Source: an uncultured Roseobacter sp. (GTDB lineage Bacteria; Pseudomonadota; Alphaproteobacteria; Rhodobacterales; Rhodobacteraceae). Taken from it: a stretch of 64,000 bases of DNA. This document shows positions 18,567-50,114 of the stretch, in pieces. How positions within the stretch are numbered: position 1 is the first letter of the stretch; each line of letters opens with the position of its first letter. Location: positions 1 to 64,000 of the forward strand of contig CANMWT010000007.1 of the NCBI GenBank assembly GCA_947501635.1, given 5' to 3'. Position numbers and translations under genes: made by a program. The notes beneath the pieces were generated by a model. The model was not told the origin of the DNA, searched no databases, and worked only from the letters and a program-made list of their open reading frames with translations.

Positions 18567-18567
18567 T

Positions 18568-23784: not shown

Positions 23785-23805
23785 AAATTCAGAACAATTG
23801 GCGAC

Positions 23806-26193: not shown

Positions 26194-26213
26194 TGTTACT
26201 TGCTCTCCGGAAG

Positions 26214-26238: not shown

Positions 26239-26255
26239 GATAACAGCCGATTTTT

Positions 26256-26726: not shown

Positions 26727-26760
26727 TGCTGTTTCTCCTCTCTTTTCAGCGCGCACGCGA

Positions 26761-31960: not shown

Positions 31961-32543
31961 AACCCAACGCGAGGATAGCGGCCAACGCGCCCCGCCACTC
32001 ATCCAAATCCGGCGCCCTTGGAATACTGGGTTTATCGAGGTTTGACTAACTCTTTGGTTTCTTAGTGGTGCCAGGCGCGGAGGAAAACCACCGACACGAG
32101 GGTTTTCAATCAGTCCGGTTTACCCCACATACCGCCACAAACTGCATCATCCGACAACACTAACTTCATGGCAAAAGTGAATTTCTGGCGTGCGCACCGC
32201 CACATTCAACCACGGAGGTTTGTGTCACCCATAAGCCACTCAAACACCGTTTCAAAACCAATAGCGGACGTTCAAGCAAACTGCAGCGAATGACCGCTTT
32301 GCGCCCATAGTTCCGGATGCTGCAGTATGCACCAAGGTCTGAAAACCGGAACGAAACGGTCATTTGATGACGGTCTTTGCCTCTTTACTATGATGGATGT
32401 TGGCGATTTCGACGGAATATCAGATACTTGTGGGGCGTCGTGCACAACAGGTGTTCACGTTTCTATCGCACAGTATCGTCTTCTTTGCGAAGCTGAGTCG
32501 GCAAGCAATTAAGGTTGGTCGTTTGTACGCCGAATATCAGCGT
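31961..32543. other. Intergenic region holding the left island boundary
   Basis: About 580 bases with no credible coding frame. It contains the degenerate tRNA-Phe copy at about 32047-32136, taken here as the left end of a genomic island. The rest shows no recognisable element. Confidence 0.5.
32047..32136 (-). repeat. Degenerate direct repeat of tRNA-Phe 3' half and flank (candidate att site)
   Basis: A 26-base core at 32086-32111 matches the intact tRNA-Phe gene (47833-47858) with one mismatch, covering the anticodon arm and T arm. Weaker similarity continues through the CCA end into downstream flank (AACTCTTTG at 32048-32056 and at 47796-47804), and faintly into the 5' half (TTTACCCC against TCTACCCC). 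Orientation is the same as the tRNA, as expected for the duplicated end of an element inserted in the tRNA 3' end. It cannot fold as a working tRNA. Confidence 0.7.
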
Positions 32544-32675
32544 TTACTTCCGTTTATTCCCGATATTGAGCGGCGTCTTTTCCTTGGCGAAATCAGCCGT
32601 CGCCAGGACCTGCTCCTTTACTTTTTTCGGTTTCTTCACTTCACGATTTCCACGCTTCTTGTTGCCTTTGGACAT
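32544..32675 (-). CDS. Small basic protein of 43 residues
   Basis: This short frame starts at an ATG with a perfect GGAGG 7 bases upstream and encodes a Lys/Arg-rich peptide beginning MSKGNKKRGNREVKKPKK and ending GNKRK. Small proteins of this type (MSKGN...RGNRE.KKPKK) recur in alphaproteobacterial genomes as hypothetical proteins. Nucleic-acid binding is plausible from charge only. It is the first gene inside the tRNA-Phe island. Confidence 0.7.
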   Translation of the reverse strand: MSKGNKKRGNREVKKPKKVKEQVLATADFAKEKTPLNIGNKRK

Positions 32676-32885
32676 CTGATTTCCTCCAATGTCATGTTTG
32701 TTGTGCTTTCAAATGGTCGGACTGATACCGACGTTTCTTGCCAGCAGAAACTCTGTCGTGCGTCGTTGGACAGCATCATTGAGCCGGTTTTCATCATGCC
32801 GCCCATGGCATCGATTTCGGACATTCCAGCGGGCCTGTTCGGCTTCTATTGCGAGATTGCGGATCGCGACCGCCGCTGTATTGCA

Positions 32886-33122
32886 TCACGGGCGTCGAAC
32901 AGAGTTCCCGCTAGCGATGACGGCGTTGATCATTTCGGCGACGGCCCGGTGCCTTTCCATTTCGAGTTCGGTGCCAAGGGCGTTCACATGGGTCGCCGCG
33001 GCGTCACGAAGTACCCCCACGATCTCGTGTTCCGGCAACAACCCGCGATCGTTCATGGCAAGCAGGAGCGCCTCGCAGATCGATAGGGCGGCCTGGCCTG
33101 CATGTTCGCTTGCGGTGGACAT
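32886..33122 (-). CDS. Hypothetical helical protein, 78 residues
   Basis: It starts at 33122 with GGAAGGAAAC just upstream. The sequence is mostly helical and amphipathic (AALSICEALLLAMNDRGLLP, then IVGVLRDAAATHVNAL and a C-terminal helix). Similar short proteins occur in alphaproteobacteria, without assigned function. It is divergent from the Crp/Fnr gene, which may control it. Confidence 0.65.
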   Translation of the reverse strand: MSTASEHAGQAALSICEALLLAMNDRGLLPEHEIVGVLRDAAATHVNALGTELEMERHRAVAEMINAVIASGNSVRRP

Positions 33123-33272
33123 CTGAGTTTCCTTCCTTGGCATCGTGAGCCTGAGAAAAGGTGAGACTCAGATGCATCCGTACATCTCGCAGGAAGTGCT
33201 CTATGATGGACTGATCCAGAGCAGTGCCTGAGCCGATTTCTGCTCTTGGGTCGCGACACGCCGGGAGGCCCA

Positions 33273-34007
33273 ATGACATCTGCTGAACACAGCCCCCTGA
33301 CCCGCAAGCTCTCGGCCTTTGTCGCTTTGTCAAAGGCGGAGTTGGATGTGCTCGAGCGCCTGCACCAGCGCCGCCGCTCCTTCGTCGCTGGGCGCGATAT
33401 GGTCCATCAGGGGCAGTCGGCTCAGGCCGCTTATATTCTGTCCTCGGGTTGGGTCTGTTCCTACAAACTGCAGGCCGACGGGACCCGGCAGATCGTGGAT
33501 TTCCAAGTGCCGGGAGATTTTCTCGGGCTGCGGAGCGTCCTCTTGCGCACGTCGGACCATAGCTTCGAACCCATCGTCGACATCGAGGCTGCGGAGGTGC
33601 TGAAGAGCGACCTACTGGCGGCCTTCTCGGATACTCCGCGGCTTGCGACAGCCATTCTTTGGGCGGCGTCGCGGGACGAGGCAATGGTGGTCGAACACCT
33701 TGTAGGGATCGGCAGGCGTGATGCGGACGCCCGCATGGCGCATTTTCTGTTGGAGCTGGGATCGCGGCTTGCGCTGGTGGGCATGGGGACTAAGGATGGG
33801 TACGACTGCCCGCTGACCCAGTACCACCTCGCGGATGTGCTGGGACTGAGTGCCATCCACGTGAACCGCGTTCTGCGCCAGCTTCGCGAGAGTGGACTGG
33901 TGACCTTTCGGGACGGTCGCGTGACGTTTCACGACTATGGTGGCTTGGTGGACCTTGCCGAGTTCGATCCGGCATATCTGGACCAGACCGGACCGCTCCT
34001 GAAGTGA
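33273..34007 (+). CDS. Crp/Fnr-family transcriptional regulator
   Basis: A 244-residue regulator: an N-terminal cyclic-nucleotide-binding fold (FVAGRDMVHQGQSAQAAYIL, VDFQVPGDFLGLRSVLL) and a C-terminal HTH (LADVLGLSAIHVNRVLRQLR). It lacks the N-terminal Cys cluster of true FNR, so it does not look like an iron-sulfur oxygen sensor. GGGAGG precedes the ATG at 33273. In the island it sits among small stress-type genes and is the only global-type regulator there. Confidence 0.9.
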   Translation: MTSAEHSPLTRKLSAFVALSKAELDVLERLHQRRRSFVAGRDMVHQGQSAQAAYILSSGWVCSYKLQADGTRQIVDFQVPGDFLGLRSVLLRTSDHSFEPIVDIEAAEVLKSDLLAAFSDTPRLATAILWAASRDEAMVVEHLVGIGRRDADARMAHFLLELGSRLALVGMGTKDGYDCPLTQYHLADVLGLSAIHVNRVLRQLRESGLVTFRDGRVTFHDYGGLVDLAEFDPAYLDQTGPLLK

Positions 34008-34009
34008 GA

Positions 34010-34039
34010 GGGCCGCCCTCCCTATTCGGCAGGCGGCCC
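34010..34039. terminator. Bidirectional hairpin between convergent genes
   Basis: GGGCCGCC (34010-34017) pairs perfectly with GGCGGCCC (34032-34039), directly after the Crp/Fnr stop and before the convergent 62-residue gene. No clear U-run. Confidence 0.55.
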
Positions 34040-34064
34040 CGTTGATCACGTCAGACGCTGGTTG

Positions 34065-34253
34065 TCACGCAAGCGCATGCTTCGCGGCATCGAGTTCCTT
34101 GTTGGTCTCGGCGTCGTTCTTCGCCGTGTTCGCCTTCTCGGCTGCCTGGTAGTGCTTCAGCGCTGCATCCTTCTTTGGACCAGCGGGCGCCTTGTCCCAC
34201 TCGGCTTTCACAGAGGTCATCTTCTCGGCAGTCTTGTTCTGTTCGGGAGTCAT
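34065..34253 (-). CDS. Small 62-residue protein, paralogue of the gene at 41871
   Basis: It starts at 34253 with AGGAAAGGAC upstream. It is hydrophilic and helical, with many Ala, Lys and Glu. It aligns end to end with the product at 41871: both are 62 residues, share the SEKM/AEKM-x-SVKA start, a central Tyr-containing HY..AE segment and the ending ELDAA+.ALA. No function is known. Confidence 0.75.
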   Translation of the reverse strand: MTPEQNKTAEKMTSVKAEWDKAPAGPKKDAALKHYQAAEKANTAKNDAETNKELDAAKHALA

Positions 34254-34468
34254 TGGAATTGTCCTTTCCTGGAAGCTCCGAGAATAAGAAGCGTGCCGAC
34301 ATGCCGACCCTTTTAGGGTCAACACGCCGACGCGCAACTCAGGTACTCGGAAATCTTCTCTGCCACCAAATATTCGGCGGGCATGTTTGACCTAGCCTTG
34401 CCAGAGGTCTTCCAGACTGCCGTAGGTTAGTCCCGGCGCCTGCGGCAGATCGATTGCCTCTACGCTTC

Positions 34469-34882
34469 TCAAGTCACCACAGTTTGCTGATGGGAAATCC
34501 TCAGCCAGATTTCGTTATCGTGGAGGTAGGTCGAGGCGCAGAGGGCTTTGTAGATTGGCACGTCGGCCTTCTCTGCCGAGGCTCGATAGGTGAGAATGGC
34601 GATGTCACGACACCGCGTCACGCGCCGTTCGGCCATGACAACGGTGCGCCAGCCTGTATTTTCATGAAGGTGGGTCCAGATCTGGTCACCTTGGAGGATG
34701 CCTGGCGGATAGGGGAAGACCATGACTGCGTTGGTCGCAGTCGTTGCCCGCGCGTTATCGGCGCTACTGGTCCAGAAGTGTTCCTCCATGTCCCACAGAA
34801 CGCCCTGTTCGTGTGGAGAAAGCCTACCGGACTTGTGTGCCGCATGGGCCGGTCTCCTCGCGGTCGCGGTTGATACGGTCAT
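34469..34882 (-). CDS. NTF2-like (DUF4440-type) protein
   Basis: A 137-residue protein whose C-terminal half has the pattern common in NTF2-like/DUF4440 proteins: RTVVMAERRVTR, DIAILTYRASAEK, YKALCASTYL, IWLRISHQQT. Its start overlaps the stop of the upstream minus-strand gene by four bases (ATGA). Probably a small-molecule-binding or minor enzymatic protein; no substrate can be named. Confidence 0.75.
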   Translation of the reverse strand: MTVSTATARRPAHAAHKSGRLSPHEQGVLWDMEEHFWTSSADNARATTATNAVMVFPYPPGILQGDQIWTHLHENTGWRTVVMAERRVTRCRDIAILTYRASAEKADVPIYKALCASTYLHDNEIWLRISHQQTVVT

Positions 34883-35304
34883 TCGCCTGACCCCGAGCCG
34901 CCAACCATGAACATCTGAAACAGTACAAAGATTGTCGCGAGCACCGCCCAGATCGCGCCGCTTTTGCCCGGGTGGTCGTCTGTGACGGTCGAGGCGGCGC
35001 GCTGCAGGGCACCTGACGTTGGTCTTTCGGGAAGCAGCTGGCTCAGGTCTCGTGCAATCCTGCCGTGGTCGCTGGCGAGCGCCGGAACGTCCCGAAACCG
35101 GGCAAGCAGCGTTCCCAATCGCGCTCGCGCGCCATCGCGCCCCAGCGTGACCAGTTCAGCGGTTTCTATCCATGGATCGAGGCCAAGCCGCGCGAGCGTG
35201 GAGAGCACAGTCACGGCAAAGCCATTCCGGTCCTCGCCGACGGAGGCATGGAGAAACCGATCGAACTCGGGCGGGTGCGGGTTGAGTACATTGGGGTCGG
35301 CCAT
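34879..35304 (-). CDS. Hypothetical protein with C-terminal membrane anchor
   Basis: A 141-residue protein with a soluble N-terminal part (FDRFLHASVGEDRNGFAV, LARLGLDPWIETAELVTLG) and one C-terminal helix (SGAIWAVLATIFVLFQMFMV). It is translationally coupled to the NTF2-like gene by a 4-base overlap. Family not recognised by name. Confidence 0.68.
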   Translation of the reverse strand: MADPNVLNPHPPEFDRFLHASVGEDRNGFAVTVLSTLARLGLDPWIETAELVTLGRDGARARLGTLLARFRDVPALASDHGRIARDLSQLLPERPTSGALQRAASTVTDDHPGKSGAIWAVLATIFVLFQMFMVGGSGSGE

Positions 35305-35459
35305 AGCCAATCCTTTCAAGGGTTGCAGGAATGCAGATCATCCCTGTTTTCCAAAGTGTACGTGCAGGTCGGTCCCCGCGCCCTTACACAGGTCAGTGCC
35401 CGCAAACCTCTCCAGGGAGTTCCCTACCCGCGCGGCGCCCGGGACTAACATGTGTCAGT

Positions 35460-35507
35460 ACCAGTCGAACGTTTCCGAAGTACAAAAGGAGAAATCGTTC
35501 GACTGGT
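35460..35507. promoter_or_regulatory. 12-bp perfect inverted repeat upstream of small-protein operon
   Basis: ACCAGTCGAACG (35460-35471) and CGTTCGACTGGT (35496-35507) are exact reverse complements separated by 24 bases, 70 bases before the gene at 35577. It could be an operator or a long-loop leader hairpin. Confidence 0.45.
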
Positions 35508-35576
35508 CAGGTCCGGAATCCAAGGGGCCGTCAACAGTGGCGAGCGACGGATCTGCCAAAATCATGGAGGCCAGAG

Positions 35577-35891
35577 ATGAGCGTGCGTTCATCCAGTTTG
35601 AGGGTGACTTTCCTGCACCCGTTCAGCCTAGCCGATTTTCCGGACGAACTTCCGGCCGGGAACTACGAAGTCCTGATTCAGGAAGAACTTCTCCGCGGGC
35701 AAGGTTTCGAAACGTATCAGAGGACGGCGACCCATATGACCGTTCCTGGCAGAGGGGATCGGGCGGGTTGGATGGAACTGCATACGATATCAGAGCGCGA
35801 CCTGAATGAGGCGCTGAGCCGGGATCAGGGACCGACTGAGATGAACAACCACAGCGAAGCGGCGCTTTCTCCGCAGGAGGACTTGAAATGA
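35577..35891 (+). CDS. Hypothetical protein, PF...LPAGxYE domain
   Basis: A 104-residue protein with GGAGG 7 bases upstream of its ATG. The N-terminal part reads FLHPFSLADF then ELPAGNYEVLIQEELL, and matches the N-terminus of the protein at 38366 (FSRPFTVPGF, TLPAGEYEIETELV). The shared domain is a short beta-rich module of unknown role. Its stop overlaps the next start (ATGA). First of four chained genes. Confidence 0.7.
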   Translation: MSVRSSSLRVTFLHPFSLADFPDELPAGNYEVLIQEELLRGQGFETYQRTATHMTVPGRGDRAGWMELHTISERDLNEALSRDQGPTEMNNHSEAALSPQEDLK

Positions 35892-36274
35892 ATACTCCCG
35901 AATGGCTCAAACCCGGCACCTATGGTGCCGTGATCGGTGCTGTCTTTGTCGGCGTCGTCGGATTCTCATGGGGCGGCTGGGTAACCGGCAGCACTTCGAA
36001 TGACCGGGCGATGGCGATGTCCCGTGACGATGTCGTCGCCTCAATGGTACCGGTCTGCCTCGACATGGCGCGGTCAGACCCGGCTAGGGCGGACAAGCTT
36101 GCAACGATCCGGGCAGCCTCAACCTACAAGCGGCGCGACGCCCTCATGACATCCGGCTGGGCGACGATGCCCGGAACCGAGGCCCCGGACCGCGAAATCG
36201 CGCAAGCTTGTCTGGCAGCCCTTGATGTCGATGGATCACCGGTGCGCCCGGAAGGCGCGGTCGATGAAGGATGA
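35888..36274 (+). CDS. Hypothetical membrane-anchored protein, 128 residues
   Basis: One N-terminal helix (GTYGAVIGAVFVGVVGFSWG) is followed by a soluble domain with two Cys (VPVCLDMARSDPARADKL; IAQACLAALDVDG). It is probably inner-membrane with the domain in the periplasm. It overlaps both neighbours by ATGA. Similar proteins occur in alphaproteobacteria without assigned function. Confidence 0.7.
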   Translation: MNTPEWLKPGTYGAVIGAVFVGVVGFSWGGWVTGSTSNDRAMAMSRDDVVASMVPVCLDMARSDPARADKLATIRAASTYKRRDALMTSGWATMPGTEAPDREIAQACLAALDVDGSPVRPEGAVDEG

Positions 36275-36744
36275 ACTGCGTCATGCCGATAGCTTCCCCC
36301 GAGACTACCGACCTCGAACGGCGTGTGCTGGCCCATGAACGGATCCTGCAAGCTCTGATCGCTTTCATGGCGCGCACTGAACCGCGATTTGTCGATCATT
36401 TGAGAGAACGGTTCGTCGAGCCGATGAGTATGTCCCGGCACGAACATGACCACCGCGAAACGGATGATTACGCGGAAGAATTCATTCGCGCGGTGATGCT
36501 CCTCGGAGAGGTGCGCGCACCCAAAGTGAAGGAGCCGGAAAAGACTGACAAGCAACCCGTGTCGCCGAATGGCAGTGGGGGACAAGGTATTTACATGAAC
36601 CGACCAACGCAGCGCGGTGGGGTTCAGGTACGCGAAAGAAACGGCATCTGGGAGGTGCAGGTCGATGGCAAGTTCCGCGGCGACTACCACCAGAAGGAAC
36701 ATGCACTTGCCGCTGCGGCCTTGCACAAATTGTCGCCCCGATGA
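36271..36744 (+). CDS. Hypothetical soluble protein, 157 residues
   Basis: The N-terminal half is a charged helix (LERRVLAHERILQALIAFMA, then an HEHDHRETDDYAEEFIRAV segment rich in His and acidic residues). The C-terminal half is a small beta domain (RERNGIWEVQVDGKFRGDYH). It overlaps the preceding gene by ATGA and the following frame in the same way. Function unknown. Confidence 0.65.
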   Translation: MNCVMPIASPETTDLERRVLAHERILQALIAFMARTEPRFVDHLRERFVEPMSMSRHEHDHRETDDYAEEFIRAVMLLGEVRAPKVKEPEKTDKQPVSPNGSGGQGIYMNRPTQRGGVQVRERNGIWEVQVDGKFRGDYHQKEHALAAAALHKLSPR

Positions 36745-37190
36745 CCGGGAACACTGATCCGACAGTTTCGCAGGACTTCTCGATCCAGGTGGCCGAGAAC
36801 GAAGGCATGCCATCGAGATCGAATTCCTGGGGCTACCCGCCCGCGCCCAATCGACGGCTGACCGGAACGCTCACTCTTGGACTATCGAAGACTCGCGCGG
36901 CAACCGGCGGACTCTGGTCCGCCAAGGAGCAAGCGGCGATGAGGCATCCCCTCGCGAGGCTGATCGCGAAGTCGGCATTCATGACCGGTGTGATCGCGTC
37001 CTTCGCCTTCCCCGCGCTTGCGCAGGATGGCACGGGGCCGATTCCGCAGAATGCTCAGGCGCCCAGCTATGGTGGCGGTAGCATCGACATCAATCTGGCG
37101 GCGAACGCCTATCTCGATCGATCCGGCAACCGCTGGAGCTGCAATCGAGGCTTCCGGCTCTCTGACGGGATGTGCATCCTTGCACGGTGA
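36741..37190 (+). CDS. Hypothetical protein with internal signal peptide; start uncertain
   Basis: The frame of 149 residues begins with an ATGA overlap and carries AENEGMPSR near residue 18. At residue 67 (36939, AAGGAG upstream) begins a classical signal peptide (MRHPLARLIAKSAFMTGVIA ending FPALAQ), then a short mature domain of about 50 residues with two Cys (WSCNRGF, GMCILAR). Either a secreted protein of 83 residues starts at 36939 and the upstream part is a separate remnant, or both parts are one protein. The first is favoured for export. Confidence 0.55.
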   Translation: MTGNTDPTVSQDFSIQVAENEGMPSRSNSWGYPPAPNRRLTGTLTLGLSKTRAATGGLWSAKEQAAMRHPLARLIAKSAFMTGVIASFAFPALAQDGTGPIPQNAQAPSYGGGSIDINLAANAYLDRSGNRWSCNRGFRLSDGMCILAR

Positions 37191-37221
37191 TGCGGATTTT
37201 TCTAGTGGTGGCGGGTCCGGC

Positions 37222-38028
37222 ATGCGCGTCAGCATCGGGTGTCGTCTGCGATACAGCTTCCCGCAGTCGACGCCGCTGATTGCGATGCTGAACGTCCACT
37301 ATTCGCGCTTTGGCGATCTGGAGCGTGCCGATTACCTCGTGACGTCGCCAAGCGTGCCGCTCGAAAGCTATCGGGACGGCTTCGGCAACTGGTGTACGCG
37401 CATGCTGGCTCCGGAGGGCGACTTCTGCCTGTCAACAGATGGCATCTTCCGCGACACGGGCCAGCCCAATCCCGTCTTTCCCAACGCGCAACAGCACGCG
37501 GTTCAGGATCTGCCATCCAATACACTCATGTTCCTGCAGGGGAGCCGGTATTGCGATACCGATCTTCTTTCGGAGGAAGCCTGGCGTCTTTTCGAGACCA
37601 CGCAACCCGGTTGGTCTCGCGTTCAAGCGATCTGCGATTTCGTGCACGGACATGTCCGCTTCGACTACATGCAGGCGAAAGCGACGCGCACCGCATCGCA
37701 GGCAATGGCCGAGCAACAGGGTGTCTGCCGAGACTTTGCCCATCTCGCCATCGCGCTGTGTCGTTGCATGAACATTCCGGCCCGCTACTGCACCGGATAT
37801 CTGAGCGATATCGGTGAACCTCTCCCTCATCCGCCGGGGGACTTCGCCGCGTGGATGGAGGTCTTTCTCTTTGGCGAATGGCACATGTTCGACCCGCGGA
37901 ACAATAAGCCGCGGTTTGCCAGAATTCTGATCGCGCGGGGCCGCGATGCCGCTGATGTCCCTTTGACCCAGACATTCGGTCAGAACACTTTGACGGAATT
38001 CAAGGTCTGGACGGATGAATTGGCCTGA
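37222..38028 (+). CDS. Transglutaminase-like cysteine protease-fold protein
   Basis: A 268-residue protein. An N-terminal beta domain is followed by the transglutaminase core: GVCRDFAHLAIALCRCMNIP (catalytic Cys), DFAAWMEVFLFGEWHMFDPR (usual HAW is AAW here, with the later His and Asp), then ILIARGRDAADVPLTQTFG, typical of this bacterial family. The His of the triad is therefore unusual, though Ser or Ala occurs there in related sequences I recall. Probably a cytoplasmic peptidase or amide hydrolase; substrate unknown. Confidence 0.82.
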   Translation: MRVSIGCRLRYSFPQSTPLIAMLNVHYSRFGDLERADYLVTSPSVPLESYRDGFGNWCTRMLAPEGDFCLSTDGIFRDTGQPNPVFPNAQQHAVQDLPSNTLMFLQGSRYCDTDLLSEEAWRLFETTQPGWSRVQAICDFVHGHVRFDYMQAKATRTASQAMAEQQGVCRDFAHLAIALCRCMNIPARYCTGYLSDIGEPLPHPPGDFAAWMEVFLFGEWHMFDPRNNKPRFARILIARGRDAADVPLTQTFGQNTLTEFKVWTDELA

Positions 38029-38160
38029 CCGACCTTGGGTTCTTTTTCGATGCGCCATCGTAAACCGGGTCGCCAATCCCTATATGTTATGTACTGGCGT
38101 CAAGCATCTCGGTCCGTCATGGACAAGGAGTTGGCACCGGCCAATCAAAGGATCGATGAT

Positions 38161-38289
38161 ATGTCCTTCAAGGACCTGACAGCCAGGGCTGCGGCCGCAA
38201 TGAAGCCGACGCCTGCGAAAACCCCTGCCAAAGAGAACGAGTCCAAAGCCGTTGGCAAGGAAGCACCAGCGAAATCCAAGACACCTTGA
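38161..38289 (+). CDS. Small Lys/Ala/Pro-rich protein, 42 residues
   Basis: It starts at 38161 with AAAGGA 8 bases upstream: a short helical start (MSFKDLTARAAAAMK) followed by a disordered Lys-Pro-Glu tail ending KSKTP. Similar short basic proteins are common in alphaproteobacteria. No function known. Confidence 0.5.
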   Translation: MSFKDLTARAAAAMKPTPAKTPAKENESKAVGKEAPAKSKTP

Positions 38290-38365
38290 GATTTGCACCG
38301 GCCAAGCGCCCCATTCTTAACGGGCGCGCGGACCACCCACAGCAACAAGGGAAAGGACCATACTA

Positions 38366-38899
38366 ATGGAAGAATTGATGAGCAAGACCGTTGCAGTTTT
38401 TTCCCGCCCGTTCACCGTTCCAGGCTTCAACGAGACGCTTCCGGCGGGAGAGTACGAGATCGAAACGGAATTGGTTTCACCCCCGGGTCAACAGGATCCC
38501 GCAGCCTGGAAAGCCTCAGTCCTGGTTAAACTTCATCCCCGGACATCGCATCCGGGGCTTACACGGTCTCTGACCGTTTCCCTTGCCGATCTGGACTATG
38601 CCCGCGCCAGGGACAAGCTGACAGGCAGAGCGTTGTCCGACTTCTTCCTTGAGGAAATGCTTGCTGATCCGATGGTGCGCCTTGTGATGGAGGCCGACGG
38701 GGTCTCTGCAGCACAAATGCGGCATCTCTATTCGGCGCACCGAACGCCCCAGTCTGACAGGGATGTCCTGGACCGGAACCCGGCGCGTCTAGGTGCACGT
38801 GACATGTCGTCAATCCATGCTGCTGAAAACGAGGGCATGCCTCCACGACCGACAGGGACGTCGGCTATGCGCACCAAAGTCAGCGCGAATTTAACATGA
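38366..38899 (+). CDS. Hypothetical protein, PF...LPAGxYE domain with AENEGMP tail
   Basis: A 177-residue protein with GGAAAGG 9 bases upstream. The N-terminal domain matches the product at 35577 (FSRPFTVPGFNETLPAGEYE). A middle helical region (DKLTGRALSDFFLEEMLADP) and a C-terminal segment SSIHAAENEGMPPR follow; the latter resembles the motif early in the frame at 36741. Its stop overlaps the next gene by ATGA. Function unknown. Confidence 0.7.
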   Translation: MEELMSKTVAVFSRPFTVPGFNETLPAGEYEIETELVSPPGQQDPAAWKASVLVKLHPRTSHPGLTRSLTVSLADLDYARARDKLTGRALSDFFLEEMLADPMVRLVMEADGVSAAQMRHLYSAHRTPQSDRDVLDRNPARLGARDMSSIHAAENEGMPPRPTGTSAMRTKVSANLT

Positions 38900-39108
38900 T
38901 CGCGAACAAAACCTCGGTCGACGTAGCATTTTCGGACATCGCCCGCGGAAGGGCCTTTGGCGACGTACCTCGAGAGCGTCCTTGTCTGAGATGCGATATT
39001 GTTTTCCGGAGTGAAGGCTTTGGAGAACGGATCTGTCGGCGCTGCAAGGGGTTGAGCGCCTGGCGGAATGCCGTGCCCGTCAGCCCTGGTGCGTCTCGCC
39101 GCTGCTAA
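38896..39108 (+). CDS. Small zinc-ribbon-like protein, 70 residues
   Basis: Two Cys pairs, PCLRCDIVF and RICRRCKGLSAW, separated by about 16 residues (RSEGFGERICRRC) suggest a zinc ribbon. Similar CLRC...ICRRCK proteins occur widely in alphaproteobacteria as hypothetical proteins. It is coupled to the preceding gene by an ATGA overlap. A nucleic-acid or protein contact role is possible. Confidence 0.65.
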   Translation: MIANKTSVDVAFSDIARGRAFGDVPRERPCLRCDIVFRSEGFGERICRRCKGLSAWRNAVPVSPGASRRC

Positions 39109-39570
39109 TCTCTATCGGTGCCCGCGCCGTCTTCCTAGTACCGTACCGGACCCGTCAATTCGCCCTGTCTAGACGTCGCTCGCATCACGCCGACCGATGT
39201 CTTATAGGGCGAAAAGGGCTTTAATCTTCCCCACCGTCACAGGAAACGCAGACGGCTCTATCACAAGTGCAGTTCTATCATTCGCCTGCGCCCAGGAAAC
39301 CCAATCAAGAAAAGCCGAAGGTCTCTGCCACAGTCAACTCCGTCGCAGGAACGCCTGCGCTGGTGATTGGTGGGAAATAGGTAAAGTAGGCAGCCGTTCA
39401 GGCCGCGATTCCTGAAAAGCAGATTTGGGCGAAATATAGTTCAACAGCCTATTGTAGAGTTCCGTCCGGATAGCCACTTTTGACACATTGGCACTCAGGT
39501 GTGGCGAGTGCCAATGTGTCCCTACGCATGCCACCCCTACCCGGAAATCTCGAGAAGGAGCATTTCCCTG
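39109..39570. other. Intergenic region upstream of groES
   Basis: About 460 bases. The right end contains the CIRCE operator; the remainder shows no gene with family features. A TTGACA at 39480-39485 abuts the CIRCE arm and could be a -35 element, but no -10 at suitable spacing was found. Confidence 0.5.
39483..39519. promoter_or_regulatory. CIRCE operator (HrcA binding site)
   Basis: TTGGCACTC-N9-GAGTGCCAA at 39488-39514 is a CIRCE element with the standard 9-bp arms and 9-base spacer (consensus TTAGCACTC/GAGTGCTAA). The symmetry continues outward, giving perfect 14-bp arms (ACACATTGGCACTC). It lies 52 bases before the groES ATG, so HrcA heat-shock repression is expected. Confidence 0.93.
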
Positions 39571-39855
39571 ATGTTTACTCCATTACATGACCGTGTCTTG
39601 GTCCGCCGTATTGAAGACGACGAAAAGACCTCGGGCGGCCTGATTATCCCAGACAATGCAAAAGAAAAACCGCAGGAAGGCGAAGTCGTATCCGTTGGTG
39701 CCGGTGCAAAAGACGATGCCGGCGCGCGTATCGCAATGGACGTCAAAGCTGGCGACAAAATTCTGTTCGGCAAATGGTCGGGCACGGAAATCAAGATCGA
39801 AAGTGAAGAGTTGATGATCATGAAGGAGAGCGACATCTTGGGCATTATGGCCTGA
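39571..39855 (+). CDS. groS: Co-chaperonin GroES
   Basis: A 94-residue Gro[21 protein letters not shown] start, the mobile loop around [16 protein letters not shown] and the C-terminal strand ESDILGIMA. It caps the GroEL ring in ATP-driven protein folding. The ATG at 39571 with AAGGAG upstream is the family start; the open frame before it lies within the CIRCE leader. It is the first gene of the groESL pair within the tRNA-Phe island, suggesting a second copy besides the usual chromosomal one. Confidence 0.96.
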
Positions 39856-39865
39856 ACGACGCTGA

Positions 39866-41533
<1,668 letters not shown>

Positions 41534-41742
41534 AAGCGAACTTTTGCTCGCGGCATTGGAACCAATTTTTATGAGCAGCGAGCAGCATATTTCTGAAGAC
41601 GGCTGGCACCAGCGACCTTGCTTTTTTGGTCGCTCTGCCCCATGAGTAGACCATGTCTGAAGGCTCCGCTTTCTGACGTTAAATTGCTCCAAGCTGATCT
41701 GTGTAAGCGTCGTTAACTGGAATGTAAGCTAGCTAGAGAATG

Positions 41743-41762
41743 CCTGCTGAAAATTCAGCAGG
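41743..41762 (+). terminator. Hairpin with T-rich tail
   Basis: Perfect 9-bp stem CCTGCTGAA/TTCAGCAGG with an AA loop, then AAGTGTGTTTT. It lies about 210 bases after groEL. Confidence 0.5.
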
Positions 41763-41783
41763 AAGTGTGTTTTCGAGTATTTA

Positions 41784-41838
41784 AGCGGCGCGCAAGTGGC
41801 AGTTCCCTAAAAAAGAAATTCTTCTTTCGCGTGCCGCT
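41784..41838 (+). ncRNA. Structured 5' leader of the 62-residue gene at 41871
   Basis: AGCGGCGCGC (41784-41793) pairs with GCGTGCCGCT (41829-41838) with one G-U pair, and an inner AAGAA/TTCTT stem sits in the loop. It ends 32 bases before the ATG and could be a regulatory leader or an mRNA-stabilising structure. Confidence 0.4.
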
Positions 41839-41870
41839 CTTTCTCGAGGTGCCTAGGAAAGGACACCACA

Positions 41871-42059
41871 ATGAAACTCAACACCAATACCATCTCGGAA
41901 AAGATGAAGTCCGTTAAAGCCAGCTGTGGAGGCGCACCCTTCGGTGAAAAACGAACGCAGGCCTGGAGACATTACAACGCTGCTGAGGCCGCGCACAAAG
42001 CGAATGACGACATCAAGACGAAATACGAACTCGACGCTGCCAGGAAAGCCCTTGCGTAA
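41871..42059 (+). CDS. Small 62-residue protein, paralogue of the gene at 34065
   Basis: A hydrophilic helical protein of the same length and pattern as the product at 34065: SEKMKSVKAS start, HYNAAEAAHKAND centre, ELDAARKALA end. GGAAAGGACACC lies before the ATG. Two copies in one island, both as single genes, suggest a small family with a role that tolerates or needs dosage. No function known. Confidence 0.78.
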   Translation: MKLNTNTISEKMKSVKASCGGAPFGEKRTQAWRHYNAAEAAHKANDDIKTKYELDAARKALA

Positions 42060-42113
42060 TAAATAACGACCGCGTGGAAAAACGGGCCAGTTTGCGCAAA
42101 TGCAGAATGCAAT

Positions 42114-42419
42114 ATGCCGGGACCTGAAACGCAATCCATGATGGATTGCCCTACATTGATTGGAAAAAACGTGGAAAATGCAACTCTCGTAGCAGCCCTT
42201 GTGACATCCGTCGCATTCTCTGCCAATGCAGTGTCCGCCGACACTGATACCGACGGCGACGGCATGGCTTCCTTCGCTGAACTTCAGCTTGTGTACCCTT
42301 TCCTTACCGATTCAATGTTCATGGACATCGATACAAATGGCGATGGCCTTATCAACGACGAGGAAATGGCTATCGCCTTGGAGCTTGGCAACCTCGAAAA
42401 TCCTGAAACCGACTCCTGA
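42114..42419 (+). CDS. Secreted EF-hand protein
   Basis: Up to 101 residues; a GTG at 42171 would give an 82-residue protein beginning with a signal-like stretch (NATLVAALVTSVAFSANAVSA). The mature part has two canonical EF-hand loops, DTDGDGMASFAE and DTNGDGLINDEE, so it should bind Ca2+ in the periplasm or outside. Calmodulin-like role unknown. The start is uncertain between 42114 and 42171. Confidence 0.75.
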   Translation: MPGPETQSMMDCPTLIGKNVENATLVAALVTSVAFSANAVSADTDTDGDGMASFAELQLVYPFLTDSMFMDIDTNGDGLINDEEMAIALELGNLENPETDS

Positions 42420-42442
42420 AACAAAAGGTTGGAGTATGCGCT

Positions 42443-42799
42443 ATGCAAAATCGTGAAGTTTTCAGATGGACCTTCACAGCTTCAGGGCTCTGGCTCATCT
42501 TGTCGCCATTCATGCTTCTCGGCGGCCAATCGGCTCTTAGCAATGCCCTCGTTGGCGATGCAGGACTTCTCATTCTCTCGGGTCTTTTGGCTTTGACCGT
42601 AGCGGGTTACGGCCACAACAAACATTACCTGGTCCAGACCTACTTGGGAGTTTCCTACGGTTTGATTTTGGTAGCGGCTCCTTGGCTGTTCGGATTCACC
42701 GAACCTGTGACCGCCTGGAATGCCGGCGTCGTCGGAACGGCTTTGGTTCTGGCGGGCCTTTATGTGGTGTTTCAAAAAATGCCGAAACACCACGCATAG
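42443..42799 (+). CDS. SPW-repeat membrane protein
   Basis: A 118-residue protein with four membrane helices. SPW repeat motifs are seen twice: LWLILSPFMLLG and APWLFGFTEPVTAWN with the typical following VVGTALVLAGLY. Often found near stress genes; function unknown. It starts 23 bases after the EF-hand gene and ends before a strong terminator. Confidence 0.82.
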   Translation: MQNREVFRWTFTASGLWLILSPFMLLGGQSALSNALVGDAGLLILSGLLALTVAGYGHNKHYLVQTYLGVSYGLILVAAPWLFGFTEPVTAWNAGVVGTALVLAGLYVVFQKMPKHHA

Positions 42800-42811
42800 T
42801 GAAGACACTGC

Positions 42812-42834
42812 TGTGGGGCGGCAAACGCCCCACA
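42812..42834 (+). terminator. Hairpin terminator after SPW gene
   Basis: TGTGGGGCG (42812-42820) pairs with CGCCCCACA (42826-42834) across a 5-base loop GCAAA: a perfect 9-bp stem, followed by CTTCT. Confidence 0.7.
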
Positions 42835-43216
42835 CTTCTAATCGTTGTCCTTGCCAATACTACTCACCCTGCATCTCTTCCGGAGATGGCTATTGGCCAT
42901 TGACCGCGAGTCGAACGCTTCGCGACTTATGGAGAAATGGACAGACTGTCTCACTGGACCAAGGTCGTAACCACTGGAGGTGTGCAACTCGTGTGCACTC
43001 CAAAGTGAAGGTCCGGAAAGCGCACGAAAGCAGCCTCTTGCGCAAACGCAGCGAATTCACCCTTTGTCCGCGGAGCAGACCTCAGTGCATCGCGCAGCTA
43101 ACGGCAGCTCCGAGCCCTATACCCTCTAAATGCTGCACTAAGTCCAAATAGCCGCGACACGCCAAAAGCCGACTTTGATCCCCAAAAACCTGGCCCCAAC
43201 GGCCGGCTGAGCGTGG
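42835..43216. other. Intergenic region, no gene recognised
   Basis: About 380 bases between the SPW terminator and the convergent DUF4274-like gene. No family features or clear repeats. Confidence 0.4.
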
Positions 43217-43909
43217 TCACATAAAGAACATACGTTGTAGCGATGGCCACATGAGCAAGATCGCGGCGCCCCAAATCGCGACGAGTGGCCACTTTTTCCC
43301 TCGTTTAGGTTTTTTGGCCTGCGTCGCGATTAATTCTTCGACGCGCGTTTCAACCCGTCGCCCAGCGATAACCGCGCGCATGGCGACGGGCTTTATGGCC
43401 GCTGCGCCTCCCGGAGCGGCTTCTTTCATCGCTTCAAAAATCTCTTGTGCCGTCTCTTCTTCGTATTGCGAAAAAGGGCGTTGAGCGACAGCTGACCTGT
43501 CGAGCGCAGGATTGACGATCTTCGAACTCAGCGCCCAGGGAGCAATGGGACTGGCCGCGTTGTCGAGGTATTGGGTTACTTCCGGGCTGTCGCCGACGAG
43601 ATGGTCATCGTGCCGATGCGTATATTTCCCTCCGTTGATCCGCTTCTGTATGCGCAGGAAAAGATCGAACATTTCAGGATCGCCCTGAACTGCCGGGTCT
43701 GAATGATACGCCGCATCACCAAGATCAAACATGAACAGAACAGCCAATAGCGGACAATCTTCACGATCCGCAATGGCGCTCATGGTTGAGGCAACACAAG
43801 AGTCCCAATTGTGGCTCAGCACAGCCTCCACAAGGTCTTCGCGAGGCAAAGAGGTCGCGATAGTGGTCTCTTCTTCACATGTCGCTGCGTATTCAAATGG
43901 GTAGTTCAC
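43217..43909 (-). CDS. DUF4274-like protein with C-terminal membrane anchor
   Basis: A 230-residue protein. The N-terminal part resembles DUF4274 (SHNWDSCVASTMSAIADRED, then CPLLAVLFMFDLGDAAY), a family of unknown function. A His-rich KYTHRHDDHL segment lies in the middle and a single helix at the C-terminus (WPLVAIWGAAILLMWPSL) anchors it to the membrane, domain in the cytoplasm. Monocistronic. Confidence 0.65.
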   Translation of the reverse strand: MNYPFEYAATCEEETTIATSLPREDLVEAVLSHNWDSCVASTMSAIADREDCPLLAVLFMFDLGDAAYHSDPAVQGDPEMFDLFLRIQKRINGGKYTHRHDDHLVGDSPEVTQYLDNAASPIAPWALSSKIVNPALDRSAVAQRPFSQYEEETAQEIFEAMKEAAPGGAAAIKPVAMRAVIAGRRVETRVEELIATQAKKPKRGKKWPLVAIWGAAILLMWPSLQRMFFM

Positions 43910-44400
43910 GCTGGTCGCTTTCGTTTAATTGTCAGGTCTGGATCGCACGGCTTCATGGCATTTTTGCGGCTGGCTACGGGCCGATAGTGATGGGGATACG
44001 TGTTGCATGGAGCTTGGAACCACAGCACGCCGACCACTTTCTAGACCGGGACCAATGTGGCGGGTGACTGGCGCTGCCGCTCCGATGCGGTTGATGGCAC
44101 TTCTGTGGCGCTGTTTTAGCAGCGCGACACCCTCCGCATTTGCTCAGCAGAGCGGGTTCAAAGGGCGGGCACACACCAACGCGGTCATTCAGCTGCAGAA
44201 ATCAAACGGCAGAAATGTCCGCAGACTGTCAATTCGACGGCACCTTGTTCATGCAGACGCCGCGAAGGTCCGGTGTGGTGAAGCCGCGGTGCAGCACTTG
44301 ACTATAAGATGAAGGTCTGGTTCGGGCCGTGTGCCTTCGTTTGGACCGTTTCTTCTGCCAAGGCGCAAGATTTAATACAACGGCAGCAATTTGTACGGTG
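43910..44400. other. Intergenic region, no gene recognised
   Basis: About 490 bases between the DUF4274-like gene and a LysR gene. Open frames exist but without start sites or family features; this may be decayed sequence within the island. Confidence 0.4.
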
Positions 44401-45279
44401 TCATCTGATGTTTTCATCCAAGAGGTTCTTCGCCATCAACGCAATAAATTCGCGCGAAGCAGCCGGCTGAAAGGGCGTTGGAGACCATATGGCGTGAATT
44501 GGAAAGCCTTCGAAACGGGCTTTAGCCAGCACTTCTACGACGCTCCCCTCCTTCAGATCGTCACGAAACGCCCAAAGTGGTCCGAGATGCGCGCCGCGAC
44601 CGGCTAAAACCGCTTCGCGCACAGCCGCCATTGAATTCACCGCGTAGCGACAAGGCATACGAAATTCCCGACGCATGCCTTCCCATTCGAAGCTGGAGCG
44701 CATCTCTGTCATGCCGGTCCGGTAGGACACAATGTTGATCTTGCTCAGATCCTCAGGCGAAAGAACCTTTGCTGCAAGGTGCGGTGCCGCCACAAGCACA
44801 CGATGCGATGTGCCGATCTGCCGCGCCCTCAACGTGCTATCCGCAAGTTTGCCGATGCGAATTGCGACGTCTATTCCTTCGGCCAGCAGATCTGCAAATC
44901 CTGATCCCAACCTAAGATCGACACTCAGATCTGGGTGGGCTTCTGACATCTCCGTCAGTACAGGGGCGACATAGCGCGCGCCAAAATCAGTGGGTGCCGC
45001 CACGCGCAAACGGCCTTTCGGGAGATCCTGACCGCCTGTGACTTCTGCAAGCAGTGCCGCGCGAGCGTCACTCAGGCGTCGCACCCCTTCAGCATAGCGT
45101 TTTCCGGCTTCGGTTGGCGCCGACGCCCGGGTGGTACGGTTGAGCAGTTTTACGCCCAACTGCGCCTCAAGCGCTGCGATACGCCTGCTGACGCGGCTGG
45201 GATCAAGGCCGGCAACCTGCGCTGCGGATCGAAAGCTGCCGCCGTCGACAACAGCGAGGAATAACTCGTCATCATTCAT
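44401..45279 (-). CDS. LysR-family transcriptional regulator
   Basis: A 292-residue LysR protein starting MNDDELFLAVVDGGSFRSAA, with recognition segment GLDPSRVSRRIAALEAQLG and effector domain from about residue 85 (KGRLRVAAPTDFGARYVAPV). The ATG at 45279 is chosen because the HTH begins there. It is divergent from the Tat-SDR gene; LysR regulators of this AaeR/DmlR-like kind often control the neighbouring oxidoreductase. Confidence 0.88.
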   Translation of the reverse strand: MNDDELFLAVVDGGSFRSAAQVAGLDPSRVSRRIAALEAQLGVKLLNRTTRASAPTEAGKRYAEGVRRLSDARAALLAEVTGGQDLPKGRLRVAAPTDFGARYVAPVLTEMSEAHPDLSVDLRLGSGFADLLAEGIDVAIRIGKLADSTLRARQIGTSHRVLVAAPHLAAKVLSPEDLSKINIVSYRTGMTEMRSSFEWEGMRREFRMPCRYAVNSMAAVREAVLAGRGAHLGPLWAFRDDLKEGSVVEVLAKARFEGFPIHAIWSPTPFQPAASREFIALMAKNLLDENIR

Positions 45280-45403
45280 TGGTGCGTTTTTCGCAATTCT
45301 GATTAGTCTTATCGCCCCATACCGGATAATCAACGCACGTTCCATATGTTTCTCACGGAAAGGCATTGCGCCTTTTGACAGCAAGGAAACGAAAGGAACG
45401 GCA

Positions 45404-45523
45404 ATGTTCAGACTATTTGCATCGCACCGTCGCGCGCCTGTTTTGCCTGCCAAGCGGGATAACGTGCTGAAGGGCCTCGCAGCCAGCGAACGGCTCAGTC
45501 ATCTGGTTCTGCTCTCGTTCTGA
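45404..45523 (+). CDS. Possible 39-residue leader peptide
   Basis: AAAGGA lies 7 bases before the ATG. The basic peptide (MFRLFASHRRAPVLPAKRD, then a Leu/Ser-rich end) lies between the LysR gene and the Tat-SDR, 70 bases before the latter. It could be a short upstream reading frame; no family is known. Confidence 0.35.
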   Translation: MFRLFASHRRAPVLPAKRDNVLKGLAASERLSHLVLLSF

Positions 45524-45593
45524 CCGCGTTTCGCAACTGTCCAGATTTACCTCAAAACGCGCCCGGACCGGGCCAAAACAAGGAGTGACCACA

Positions 45594-46577
45594 ATGACGT
45601 CCAATTCAGAAGACACCACGCCCGCACAGAAAATGTCGCGCCGCCAAATGCTGCGCACAGGCACAGTTGGCGCAGCCGCTGTGGCCGCATCCACCGTGAT
45701 GACCGCGCGCCACGCGGCGGCACAATCCTCTCCCACGACCCGAGAGCTGGAAGGCAAAACCGCTTTTGTGACTGGTGGCGCACGCGGCATCGGGCTGGCC
45801 TCGGCCGAAGAATTTGCAAAGGCCGGTGCCAATGTCGTCTTGTTCGACATCGCGACACCAAGCATGCCACACGTAAGCTATGCTTTGCCTAGCCAGGCCG
45901 ACCTCGCCGCAGCGCAGGCGCGGATCGAGGCGCTCGGAGCCCGGTGCATGACTTACCGGGGCGACGTGCGCAACTTGGAGGACCAGCAAGCCGCCATGCA
46001 GCAGGCGGTAGACCGCTTTGGCAGCCTCGACATCGTACTCGCCAATGCAGGCGTAGGTCATGCAGGCGCAATCGAGACTGTCACAGCGGGCGAAATCTCG
46101 ACACTCTACGAGGTCAACGTCGGCGGCTACATGAAAACGACACAGGCCGCCTTGCCGCATCTGCGGGCCGCCGGAGGGGGCAGGATCATCTATATCTCTT
46201 CGGGTCTCTCACGCACAGGCAATGGCATTTTTGGCTCTTACGGGGCGACAAAATGGGCCGTGAACGGCTTTGCCAAAAGTGCAGCACTGGCATATGGGCG
46301 CGAAAATATCATGTGCAACGTGGTAGCGCCTGGGCTGGTGCGCACACCTTTCGCCGACAATGAGGCGGTTCTGCGCGCAATTCTGCCGACCGCAGAGAAC
46401 CCGACCTTCGACGACGTGTCAGCGGCGATCGCATCCGGCAGCACGCTCGGCATCGGACATCACGAGGTCGAGGACATCGCAAAAGCTGTCATGTGGTTTG
46501 CAAGCGATGCGACCAAGCGCATGACGGGTGAGGTCATGGACGTCAGCTATGGGGATGCCGCACGCAGCGTCGGCTAA
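45594..46577 (+). CDS. Short-chain dehydrogenase/reductase with Tat signal
   Basis: A 327-residue SDR with a Tat signal in front: SRRQMLRTGTVGAAAVAAST to ARHAAA, cleavage near residue 45. The SDR core follows: cofactor motif TGGARGIG, NAG in LANAGVGH, catalytic Ser in ISSGLS, and YGATK (Tyr-x3-Lys). An AGGAG site lies 8 bases before the ATG at 45594. The enzyme would be exported folded with NAD(P), as known for glucose-fructose oxidoreductase, but most SDRs are cytoplasmic. Substrate unknown. Confidence 0.85.
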   Translation: MTSNSEDTTPAQKMSRRQMLRTGTVGAAAVAASTVMTARHAAAQSSPTTRELEGKTAFVTGGARGIGLASAEEFAKAGANVVLFDIATPSMPHVSYALPSQADLAAAQARIEALGARCMTYRGDVRNLEDQQAAMQQAVDRFGSLDIVLANAGVGHAGAIETVTAGEISTLYEVNVGGYMKTTQAALPHLRAAGGGRIIYISSGLSRTGNGIFGSYGATKWAVNGFAKSAALAYGRENIMCNVVAPGLVRTPFADNEAVLRAILPTAENPTFDDVSAAIASGSTLGIGHHEVEDIAKAVMWFASDATKRMTGEVMDVSYGDAARSVG

Positions 46578-46639
46578 GCCGAAAACACTGTGCCTCGCCG
46601 GTACTGGCGGGGCACACAAAACCAAAAGGAGCATCAATC

Positions 46640-47057
46640 ATGTGGAATGAAGCACTCAAGAAAGGCGGCGTTGCGGTCATCACAGGCGGGGGGCGAGCCG
46701 TGTCGGTCTGGCGAAAGCAAAGGTGGCGCGCAACTTGTCTGGTCTGGGCACCGATGTCAGGGCCGTCGAAACGGACGTAAGCGCCCACAAGCCGTCCAAC
46801 GGTTGGCCGATATCGCCTGCGACGCAGGACCGGACGCGCTGTTGATGAACACTGCGGGCGTCGCGCGACCCACAAAAGCCTGGGCGCATGCGGTCAATTT
46901 GCGTCGCACGTTTGAAGTCAATGTAGTCGGGGTCCTAAATGGCGCACAGAATTTTCTGCCCCGCATGATCGAGGCGGACAGGCCTGCCGTTGTCATCAAC
47001 ACGCTCTCGAAACAGGGCATCACGGCACCACCGGTCTATCCGGCGTCTGGTTTCTAA
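46640..47057 (+). pseudogene. Decayed short-chain dehydrogenase
   Basis: AAAAGGA precedes an ATG whose frame gives KKGGVAVITGGGR, the SDR cofactor loop. The sequence then jumps frame to VGLAKAKVARNLSGLGTDV and again to LADIACDAGPDALLMNTAGV and FEVNVVGVLNGAQNFLP, finally stopping at VYPASGF, inside the catalytic YxxxK. There are at least two frameshifts and the C-terminal half is missing. It was probably a second SDR behind the Tat-SDR. Confidence 0.82.
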
Positions 47058-47259
47058 AGCTCGTTGAATAGGATGCCTATGTGCCGACACCCGATGTCAT
47101 AGCAGCGCCACGACGTGCAGGGTGTGAGATTACTGATCTGCAAAACACCAAGTGCGACCTTGCGCGTGGAAATTTAAGCGTATTGGTCGTTAGCAACAGT
47201 ACAGTAATTATTTCCTTGATGAGATTTTTTGGATGGGGAACATCTACGAGAACCCGGAG

Positions 47260-47727
47260 CTACTGAAACAGTAATCCAACTAAATCACCGAAGCCCCAAA
47301 TCAGAGTTCCAAAAAATGCAGCGTAAATGGCGGGCTTATAGTACTTCAACGACTTGTCCGCGTTCTGGATAGCCTCTCTCTGACTGGTCATCGCGCCCTC
47401 TAGCTCCGTTACCAATTCATCCAAAACCGCAAGTCTTTCGTCGTCTGTCTGTTCTTTTAGTTCTCGCTTGATGAGCTTTACACTAACCGCGTCAGGTCGC
47501 AGACCGTGTAACGCCACTCTCACATCTGAGACGTACGCCAGACCAAATGCGAGAACTGCGATCATTACAACTACAGATCCCGAACGCGCGAACCATGTCC
47601 AATCTCCGGTACTTACACTAACGACCGCACCAAAAACTGGTGAAGACACTAACATGCCAATAATCATCCAGTGTTGAACACGTTCCGAGCGTGAAAAAAC
47701 ATGCTCTCTTTTTGGATGCTCTGCCAC
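47260..47727 (-). CDS. Hypothetical membrane protein, 155 residues
   Basis: Two N-terminal helices (WMIIGMLVSSPVFGAVVSVS; VVVMIAVLAFGLAYVSDV), a charged helical middle (LIKRELKEQTDDERLAVLDE) and a C-terminal helix (AIYAAFFGTLIWGFGDLVGL). It is the last island gene before the tRNA-Phe gene. Not an integrase. Function unknown. Confidence 0.65.
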   Translation of the reverse strand: MAEHPKREHVFSRSERVQHWMIIGMLVSSPVFGAVVSVSTGDWTWFARSGSVVVMIAVLAFGLAYVSDVRVALHGLRPDAVSVKLIKRELKEQTDDERLAVLDELVTELEGAMTSQREAIQNADKSLKYYKPAIYAAFFGTLIWGFGDLVGLLFQ

Positions 47728-47811
47728 TCAAACTCCTTAAATTTCACGAGACAAAAGTGAGACAATAGCCCCTCTGGGTCAATCTAAAATCTCGTAACTC
47801 TTTGATTTTAT

Positions 47812-47886
47812 TGGTGCCCGGGGGCGGAATCGAACCACCGACACGAGGATTTTCAATCCACTGCTCTACCCCTGAGCTACCCGGGC
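47812..47886 (-). tRNA. tRNA-Phe (GAA)
   Basis: The minus strand reads GCCCGGG...CCCGGGCACCA: 7-bp acceptor stem, D arm, anticodon loop TTGAAAA (anticodon GAA), T arm GGTGG-TTCGATT-CCGCC, discriminator A and an encoded CCA. The anticodon stem has one T-T mismatch. It is the right boundary of the island 32047-47811; downstream of its 3' end lies foreign-looking sequence. Confidence 0.95.
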
Positions 47887-48109
47887 ACGGGTGTCATCAA
47901 CATGACTGGGTGAGCGGGTTCTAGGAGGTTGCGGCTGGGGTGTCCAGCCTCTTTTTCATGTAAATGACCTGCGGATCCACGCGCGTGGCGCAATTTACAA
48001 CAGACACGCCTCCACGTCCGTCCCGCATGCGTTGGCGGTGGCGTAGGCGAGCCACACGGTATCCGCGCACGCACTGCCTATGCTGGTGCCCTGCGCTACG
48101 TCCAGCAGA

Positions 48110-48307
48110 TCAGTGCGGCGTCTGCCCTTTGTTGTCTTTTTCAGCTTTTTCAAGCGCTTCACCCAGATCCGCCGCATCCTCCAGATCATGGGACGGCACA
48201 GCATAACTGCCGTTAAACCAACGCGCCAGGTCAAGGTCGGCGCAGCGTTTCGAGCAGAAGGGACGCATTTTTTGTTGCGTCGGTCTTCCGCACATCGGGC
48301 AGGTCAT
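48110..48307 (-). CDS. yacG: DNA gyrase inhibitor YacG
   Basis: A 65-residue zinc protein: TCPMCGRPT and FCSKRCADLDLARWFNGSY supply four Cys ligands, then AVPSHDLEDA and an acidic tail. YacG binds the GyrB subunit and inhibits gyrase. It overlaps the RNase E/G gene by four bases (ATGA) and lies at the end of the infA-maf-rne-yacG unit. Confidence 0.93.
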   Translation of the reverse strand: MTCPMCGRPTQQKMRPFCSKRCADLDLARWFNGSYAVPSHDLEDAADLGEALEKAEKDNKGQTPH

Positions 48308-49892: not shown

Positions 49893-49895
49893 GGG

Positions 49896-50114
49896 TTATT
49901 TGAAGCGGTAGTTGATCCGACCCTTTGTCAGATCATATGGGGTCATTTCGACCTGCACCTTGTCGCCTGCCAGAACACGGATGCGGTTCTTGCGCATCTT
50001 GCCTGCCGTATGTGCGATAATCTCATGGCCGTTTTCAAGCTCGACCCGGAATGTCGCATTAGGCAGGAGTTCCTTCACGACACCGGGGAATTCGAGCGTA
50101 TCTTCCTTGGCCAT
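49896..50114 (-). CDS. infA: Translation initiation factor IF-1
   Basis: A 72-residue S1-fold protein, the usual length: [20 protein letters not shown] and [20 protein letters not shown], ending GRINYRFK. Binds the A site of the 30S subunit during initiation. First gene of the infA-maf-rne-yacG unit. Confidence 0.98.

Follow-up and report, generated by a model that had tools for sequence, protein, structure and literature searches.

A probable tRNA-Phe island remnant without an integrase, and the groESL cassette inside it, in an uncultured Roseobacter genome

The window analysed here is a stretch of 64,000 nucleotides (nt) from the genome of an uncultured Roseobacter sp. (GCA_947501635.1, contig CANMWT010000007.1, here C7). 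Its single tRNA gene, identified by ARAGORN, is an intact tRNA-Phe (GAA), and a copy of the 3′ half of this gene, far more similar than chance allows, lies about 15.7 kb away (start-to-start spacing 15747). The interval between the two is probably a genomic island that entered tRNA-Phe at the anticodon loop and later lost its integrase; since no integrase was found inside, it is an island remnant only. The general kind of event has long been known and the gain is therefore modest: the anticodon-loop subsite is linked to a group of similar integrases, and the case suggests that an integrase-less island was later filled by a stress-type cassette travelling independently among Rhodobacterales. 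The remnant itself is ordinary, and its filling is more interesting than its frame.

tRNA-Phe and its displaced 3′ half

When the tRNA region was searched against the whole genome (E ≤ 10), nine places were found, of which the tRNA-Phe gene itself ranks first and the fragment at 32047-32111 second (82% identity, E 4.7e-10, oriented as in tRNA-Phe); the third is on contig C9 (72%, E 8.5e-7) and the other six match over 14-21 bases. This search of the whole genome returned no further full-length, high-identity tRNA-Phe besides 47812-47886. The sequence-only reading had proposed an element inserted at the 3′ end of tRNA-Phe and bounded by a degenerate direct repeat. Alignment and genome search bear out its coordinates, the AACTCTTTG flank present in both copies and the core of 26 bases, one of them mismatched, and the position of the 3′ fragment, downstream and in the same orientation, supports the geometry. 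The alignment of the tRNA-Phe 3′ half and its flank with 32047-32111 has 54 identical columns out of 69. The strong similarity sets in at tRNA nt 29-30, in the anticodon loop. Close to the acceptor end, the fragment lacks one base of the C5G3 run, the exact base being ambiguous, as does a fragment on contig C2 of the congener G010. The chance similarity that the sequence-only reading had itself named as a refutation finds something in its favour solely in the decay of the fragment and is extremely improbable, given the genome-wide E value and a local alignment score of 42 against a maximum of 18 in 60 triplet-block shuffles of 31001-47700.

In the Islander paper (PMC4383910), site A islands, whose attachment site is centred on the anticodon, resemble the window in having an intact tRNA gene and a displaced 3′ fragment beyond the island in the right orientation. 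The criteria given there concern a shared replicon, a length of 2-200 kb and a fragment start at the anticodon loop or T region; in the window both copies are on C7, the length is 15.7 kb, and the fragment starts at the anticodon loop. The paper counts 2083 anticodon-centred and 1836 T-region sites, so the subsite used in the window is an ordinary one, and it notes that certain island fragments have a small deletion, located 3 bp upstream of the discriminator. Unlike in the islands described there, no integrase was found in the window and the fragment is decayed, and the Islander integrase filter would reject it.

The site in related genomes

The DNA 3′ of tRNA-Phe was sampled over up to 40 kb (5.4 to 40 kb obtained) in 26 relatives, comprising 16 of the 18 listed congeners and ten genomes from other genera of the family; the congeners G001, which gave no tRNA hit, and G015, whose tRNA is near a contig end, were left out. 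The window's interval is not conserved at this position in the 26 relatives; conservation in place in distant relatives would have counted against an island in the sequence-only reading. Among the 27 downstream regions, the window's included, 33 DNA matches reach 250 bases or more at E 1e-10. At an identity of 40% or above, 27 groups of open reading frames (ORFs) are common to two or three of the regions, and about five of these groups look integrase-like by similarity. Proteins of the window's interval are matched in the relatives' regions (E 1e-4) by GroEL in G016 and by LysR, SDR and Crp members at about 26-31% identity. Such scarce conservation indicates that the DNA 3′ of tRNA-Phe behaves as an insertion hotspot in the genus; a limited literature search found no description of this hotspot or of the cassette.

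Fragments of tRNA-Phe that start at the anticodon loop are found in four of the 26 downstream regions, 14.8 kb from the tRNA gene in G002, 15.4 kb in G016, 0.8 kb in G010 and 28 kb (inverted) in G004, and a second G010 fragment, on contig C6, has a boundary identical to that of the window's fragment. G003, G019 and G017 have just 17-19 nt from the end of the T-arm, weak when taken alone (E 0.28-0.75 for G003 and G019), and those in G005 (31 nt) and G008 (inverted, 71%), which are weaker, are left out of the fragment count. The four congener islands share the tRNA and fragment boundary of the window, and those of G002 and G016 are of similar size; they carry an integrase, whereas none was found in the window, and that of G010 sits on a contig other than that of the fragment 0.8 kb from the tRNA gene.

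All 19 genomes of the genus match the Phage_integrase family, with at least 4 to 38 hits per genome, among which Xer-like ones are probably included. The G002 integrase (Pfam domains Arm-DNA-bind_3 and Phage_integrase), used as a query against the genus at E ≤ 1e-30, found 12 places in ten of these genomes. Four are nearly full-length matches of at least 48% identity (48-100%), in G002 itself, G004, G010 (C6) and G016, and lie between tRNA-Phe and the fragment, except that the integrase of G010 instead adjoins the C6 fragment. Partial copies at 82-83% identity are found in G003 (C33) and G005 (C13), the G005 copy being 2.3 kb from a match to the tRNA-Phe 3′ end, and the remaining six places are at 31-35%; one of these, which is interrupted by an in-frame stop and is not on the window's contig, is the sole place in the genome analysed here. 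As judged from the fragment boundary and from the 45 nt that follow the tRNA, the integrase lost from the window most likely belonged to the group of G002, G004, G010 and G016. No Phage_integrase domain was found in the window ORFs given to Pfam. An integrase remnant was also considered and rejected, as the window has no recognisable match to 11 integrases of relatives; these we take to be integrases from similarity, and Pfam domains were checked for two (G002 and G018).

The G002 island (L072, 523-14758) has an AAA_25 ATPase, a UvrD-type helicase, an Mrr-type nuclease domain protein and a defence-model match, a PD-T7-3-like protein (E 1e-44 in PADLOC, which was run on ten proteins of relatives' islands); the helicase, the nuclease domain protein and the PD-T7-3-like protein are likely phage-defence cargo. 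In G018 (L070, 407-16981), an integrase comes first 3′ of tRNA-Phe, and VapE-like and caspase-domain proteins are carried. The tRNA-Phe island of G016 (L073) encodes, at 12019-14013 on the minus strand of the tRNA-oriented region, a GroEL of 664 amino acid residues in which about 115 residues are inserted in frame after the position of residue 354 of the window's GroEL.

Alternative origins of the interval

If the interval is an anticodon-loop island, an integrative element would have entered the single tRNA-Phe gene, and its attP would have restored a working tRNA while displacing the old 3′ half and a short flank to 32047-32111. The element would most likely have carried a tyrosine integrase like those of G002, G004, G010 and G016. 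With the integrase gene lost, the island should no longer excise by itself; the displaced half has decayed, and the 10.8-kb cassette would have come in later by another route.

Several observations weigh against this account. When the 11 integrases of relatives were searched against the window by tblastn, nothing better than E 0.30 was found, which upholds the earlier statement that no integrase is left, and the group to which the lost enzyme is assigned is defined by identity. None of the 26 downstream regions is an empty site carrying the window's far flank after tRNA-Phe, so the arrangement that the sequence-only reading expected in relatives, tRNA-Phe followed directly by the regulator region, failed to appear. 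One of the four congener fragments, that of G004, is inverted. In a flank test in which the first 45 nt after the intact tRNA-Phe were compared with 31 flanks, z was 6.0 for G010, 4.1 for the window's own displaced fragment and 3.0 for G002; G034, of another genus and with no fragment found, reaches 2.8, and G004 (1.8) and G016 (0.3), both with such integrases, are unremarkable. Two related elements entering tRNA-Phe one after the other would account for the resemblance of the flank next to the displaced fragment, and two such successive insertions may have occurred. Finally, a weak trace of the tRNA-Phe 5′ half beside the fragment is what an old full-length duplicate would also leave, and about 20 nt past the tRNA end are common to both copies, more than in the congener fragments.

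These last two points favour the alternative that 32047 is what remains of an ancient duplicate of the entire tRNA-Phe gene and its 3′ flank, with no site-specific integration and with ordinary variable DNA in between. The 5′ half is indeed somewhat more tRNA-like than at the four congener fragments: its weak alignment scores 2.0, which is matched by 9% of 5000 random 34-mers of the window, against 66-99.5% for the congeners. Such a duplication is nevertheless unlikely, as the strong similarity starts at the anticodon loop just as in the fragments of four congeners, the one-base loss in the C5G3 run recurs in another fragment of the genus, and the site behaves as an insertion hotspot with integrases in relatives. 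It is likewise unlikely, and if anything a shade less probable still, that the fragment marks a true tRNA-Phe island whose original element has gone or moved, the present 15.7 kb having resulted from later rearrangement and cassette traffic. The cassette is indeed located elsewhere in other genomes, pieces of the far flank are at several distant places in congeners among the matches listed, and the inverted fragment of G004 is 28 kb off. Against such a replacement, the fragment and the tRNA gene have the right orientation and order, the spacing is near that of G002 and G016, and the DNA adjacent to the tRNA still resembles that of G010. The anticodon-loop island that lost its integrase is the reading retained here as the probable one.

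A shift in GC content expected at both borders by the sequence-only reading was not borne out: GC is 0.576 to the left, 0.568 in the interval and 0.603 to the right, with no clear GC or tetranucleotide step. On the tRNA side, YacG and InfA are names that we assign from the translations; the YacG-like protein is at 48110-48307 on the minus strand, in a frame differing from that of the listed ORF 47995-48234. On the far side, a sigma-54 regulator (PAS and sigma-54 activator domains in Pfam) has relatives, among 59 genomes, of at least 60% identity in G008 and G019 and of 48-50% in G010, G015, G006 and G003, each on a contig other than that of the tRNA. Pieces of window positions 8000-27600 fall at several separate places in congeners, among the matches listed, and the far flank is therefore not established as the original neighbour of tRNA-Phe. 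The earlier description of ordinary genes on both sides holds for the far flank in that it is metabolic.

Contents of the interval

The features of the interval and its surroundings are listed in Table 1. The groESL copy and the pseudogene pointed out from the sequence are both present, the SDR remnant at about 46640-47057 having no plus frame that is open throughout. The DNA of 43090-47790 has matches in one of 198 genomes (G213, in two pieces), with at most two candidates scored per genome.

Table 1. Coordinates of tRNA-Phe, its fragment and neighbouring features in the window
Feature	Position	Strand	Remark
Displaced, decayed tRNA-Phe 3′ half with about 20 nt of 3′ flank	32047-32111	-	
Largely intact cassette, common to species and genera	32290-43076		about 10.8 of 15.7 kb
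Crp/Fnr-family regulator of the cassette	33246-34007	+	
Transglutaminase-like protein of the cassette	37237-38028	+	
groES and groEL of the cassette	39499-41533	+	near full-length family matches
EF-hand small protein and SPW-domain protein, right end of the cassette	42114-42799	+	
Unknown protein, LysR regulator, SDR, SDR remnant, unknown protein	43090-47790		
SDR pseudogene	46640-47057	+	frames broken
DNA just 3′ of the tRNA, probable element end	47740-47811	-	
Intact tRNA-Phe (GAA)	47812-47886	-	ARAGORN; presumed regenerated insertion target
Core side: YacG-like, RNase E/G, Maf, InfA	48110-50114	-	Pfam for RNase E/G and Maf

The cassette may have a role in stress, as suggested by groESL and the regulator; the latter, of the Crp/Fnr family, scores under every NCBIfam cut-off. 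The cassette also encodes several small proteins without a Pfam match. Its GroEL is one of two in the genome and is 79% identical to the first, which is encoded on contig C2. In congener G007 (C11), 7.1 kb corresponding to the left two thirds of the cassette match at 92% and run to the contig end, whereas two other stretches matched between the window's genome and G007 are at 70% and 75%; the identity of the cassette thus exceeds the genome background in G007. Crp/Fnr - transglutaminase - groESL cassettes of other Rhodobacterales have the window's genes, in long matches at 76-95% DNA identity. The sequence-only reading called the island decayed and old. Both words suit the displaced tRNA half and the SDR pseudogene, but they do not fit most of the interval, a largely intact cassette with identities of 92% in a congener and up to 95% in other genera.

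Within the genus, matches to the left part of the interval (E 1e-6) occur in 11 of the 19 genomes, counting the window's own; the matches are long and at 86-94% in G007, G018, G014 and G006, never on the contig of their tRNA-Phe, and are at about 70% or short in the other six. Plasmid records that match number 142, and six of the 30 listed match outside groESL (Paracoccus aminovorans, Phaeobacter porticola, Roseovarius indicus, Tritonibacter mobilis, Pseudohalocynthiibacter and Qingshengfaniella); the plasmids of P. porticola and R. indicus match the left part of the window's cassette.

A genome scan with the transglutaminase-like protein yielded 435 relatives, and 80 of them were kept. When 60 cassette loci, which span at most about 10 kb per side, often end at contig ends and in some cases represent the same place twice, were scanned for tRNAs, three had one (Ser, Met and Pro) and none had tRNA-Phe; tRNA fragments were not sought. 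The window's cassette is inside the tRNA-Phe interval; many of the others have groESL matching in the opposite orientation, on the left side. Because no tRNA-Phe was found at the 60 loci, and because closely similar copies in other species stand against a decayed fragment here, the cassette looks like a separate and younger arrival than the fragment, its divergence and that of the fragment not being on one scale.

The right edge of the cassette is at 43069-43080 in seven loci, with an eighth (L141) ending at 42942, and the neighbours past it differ among the seven, except that those of L146 equal those of L163. The left edge varies (32290, 32316, 32545, 32683, 32719, and 32834-32898 in many), being at 32290 or 32316 in the closest relatives. 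The cassette might be transferred whole from genus to genus, keeping its right edge constant and having no recombinase of its own, with integrase-dead tRNA islands as one landing place; such movement would proceed by recombination at small dispersed intergenic repeats or with the aid of nearby insertion sequences. Pfam found no recombinase domain in ten flanking ORFs of seven cassette loci. Transposase domains of the insertion-sequence type (rve) abut the left edge in L148 (edge 32683; 4745-5707) and L123 (edge 32719; 3-212), which lowers the likelihood of recombinase-free movement, and the proposal is an unlikely one.

The left edge in the window is at a small, dispersed, intergenic-looking repeat (32283-32305, core GCAGCGAATGNCNG) that occurs once in the window. 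The core is found at ten places in the genome, in the window and on contigs C2, C11, C17, C19, C22, C26, C27 and C31, as against one for a reversed control. Near the end of another contig of the same genome (G000:C9:134099-134242), a piece of 144 bases matches the cassette's left end (32353-32496) at 92% identity.

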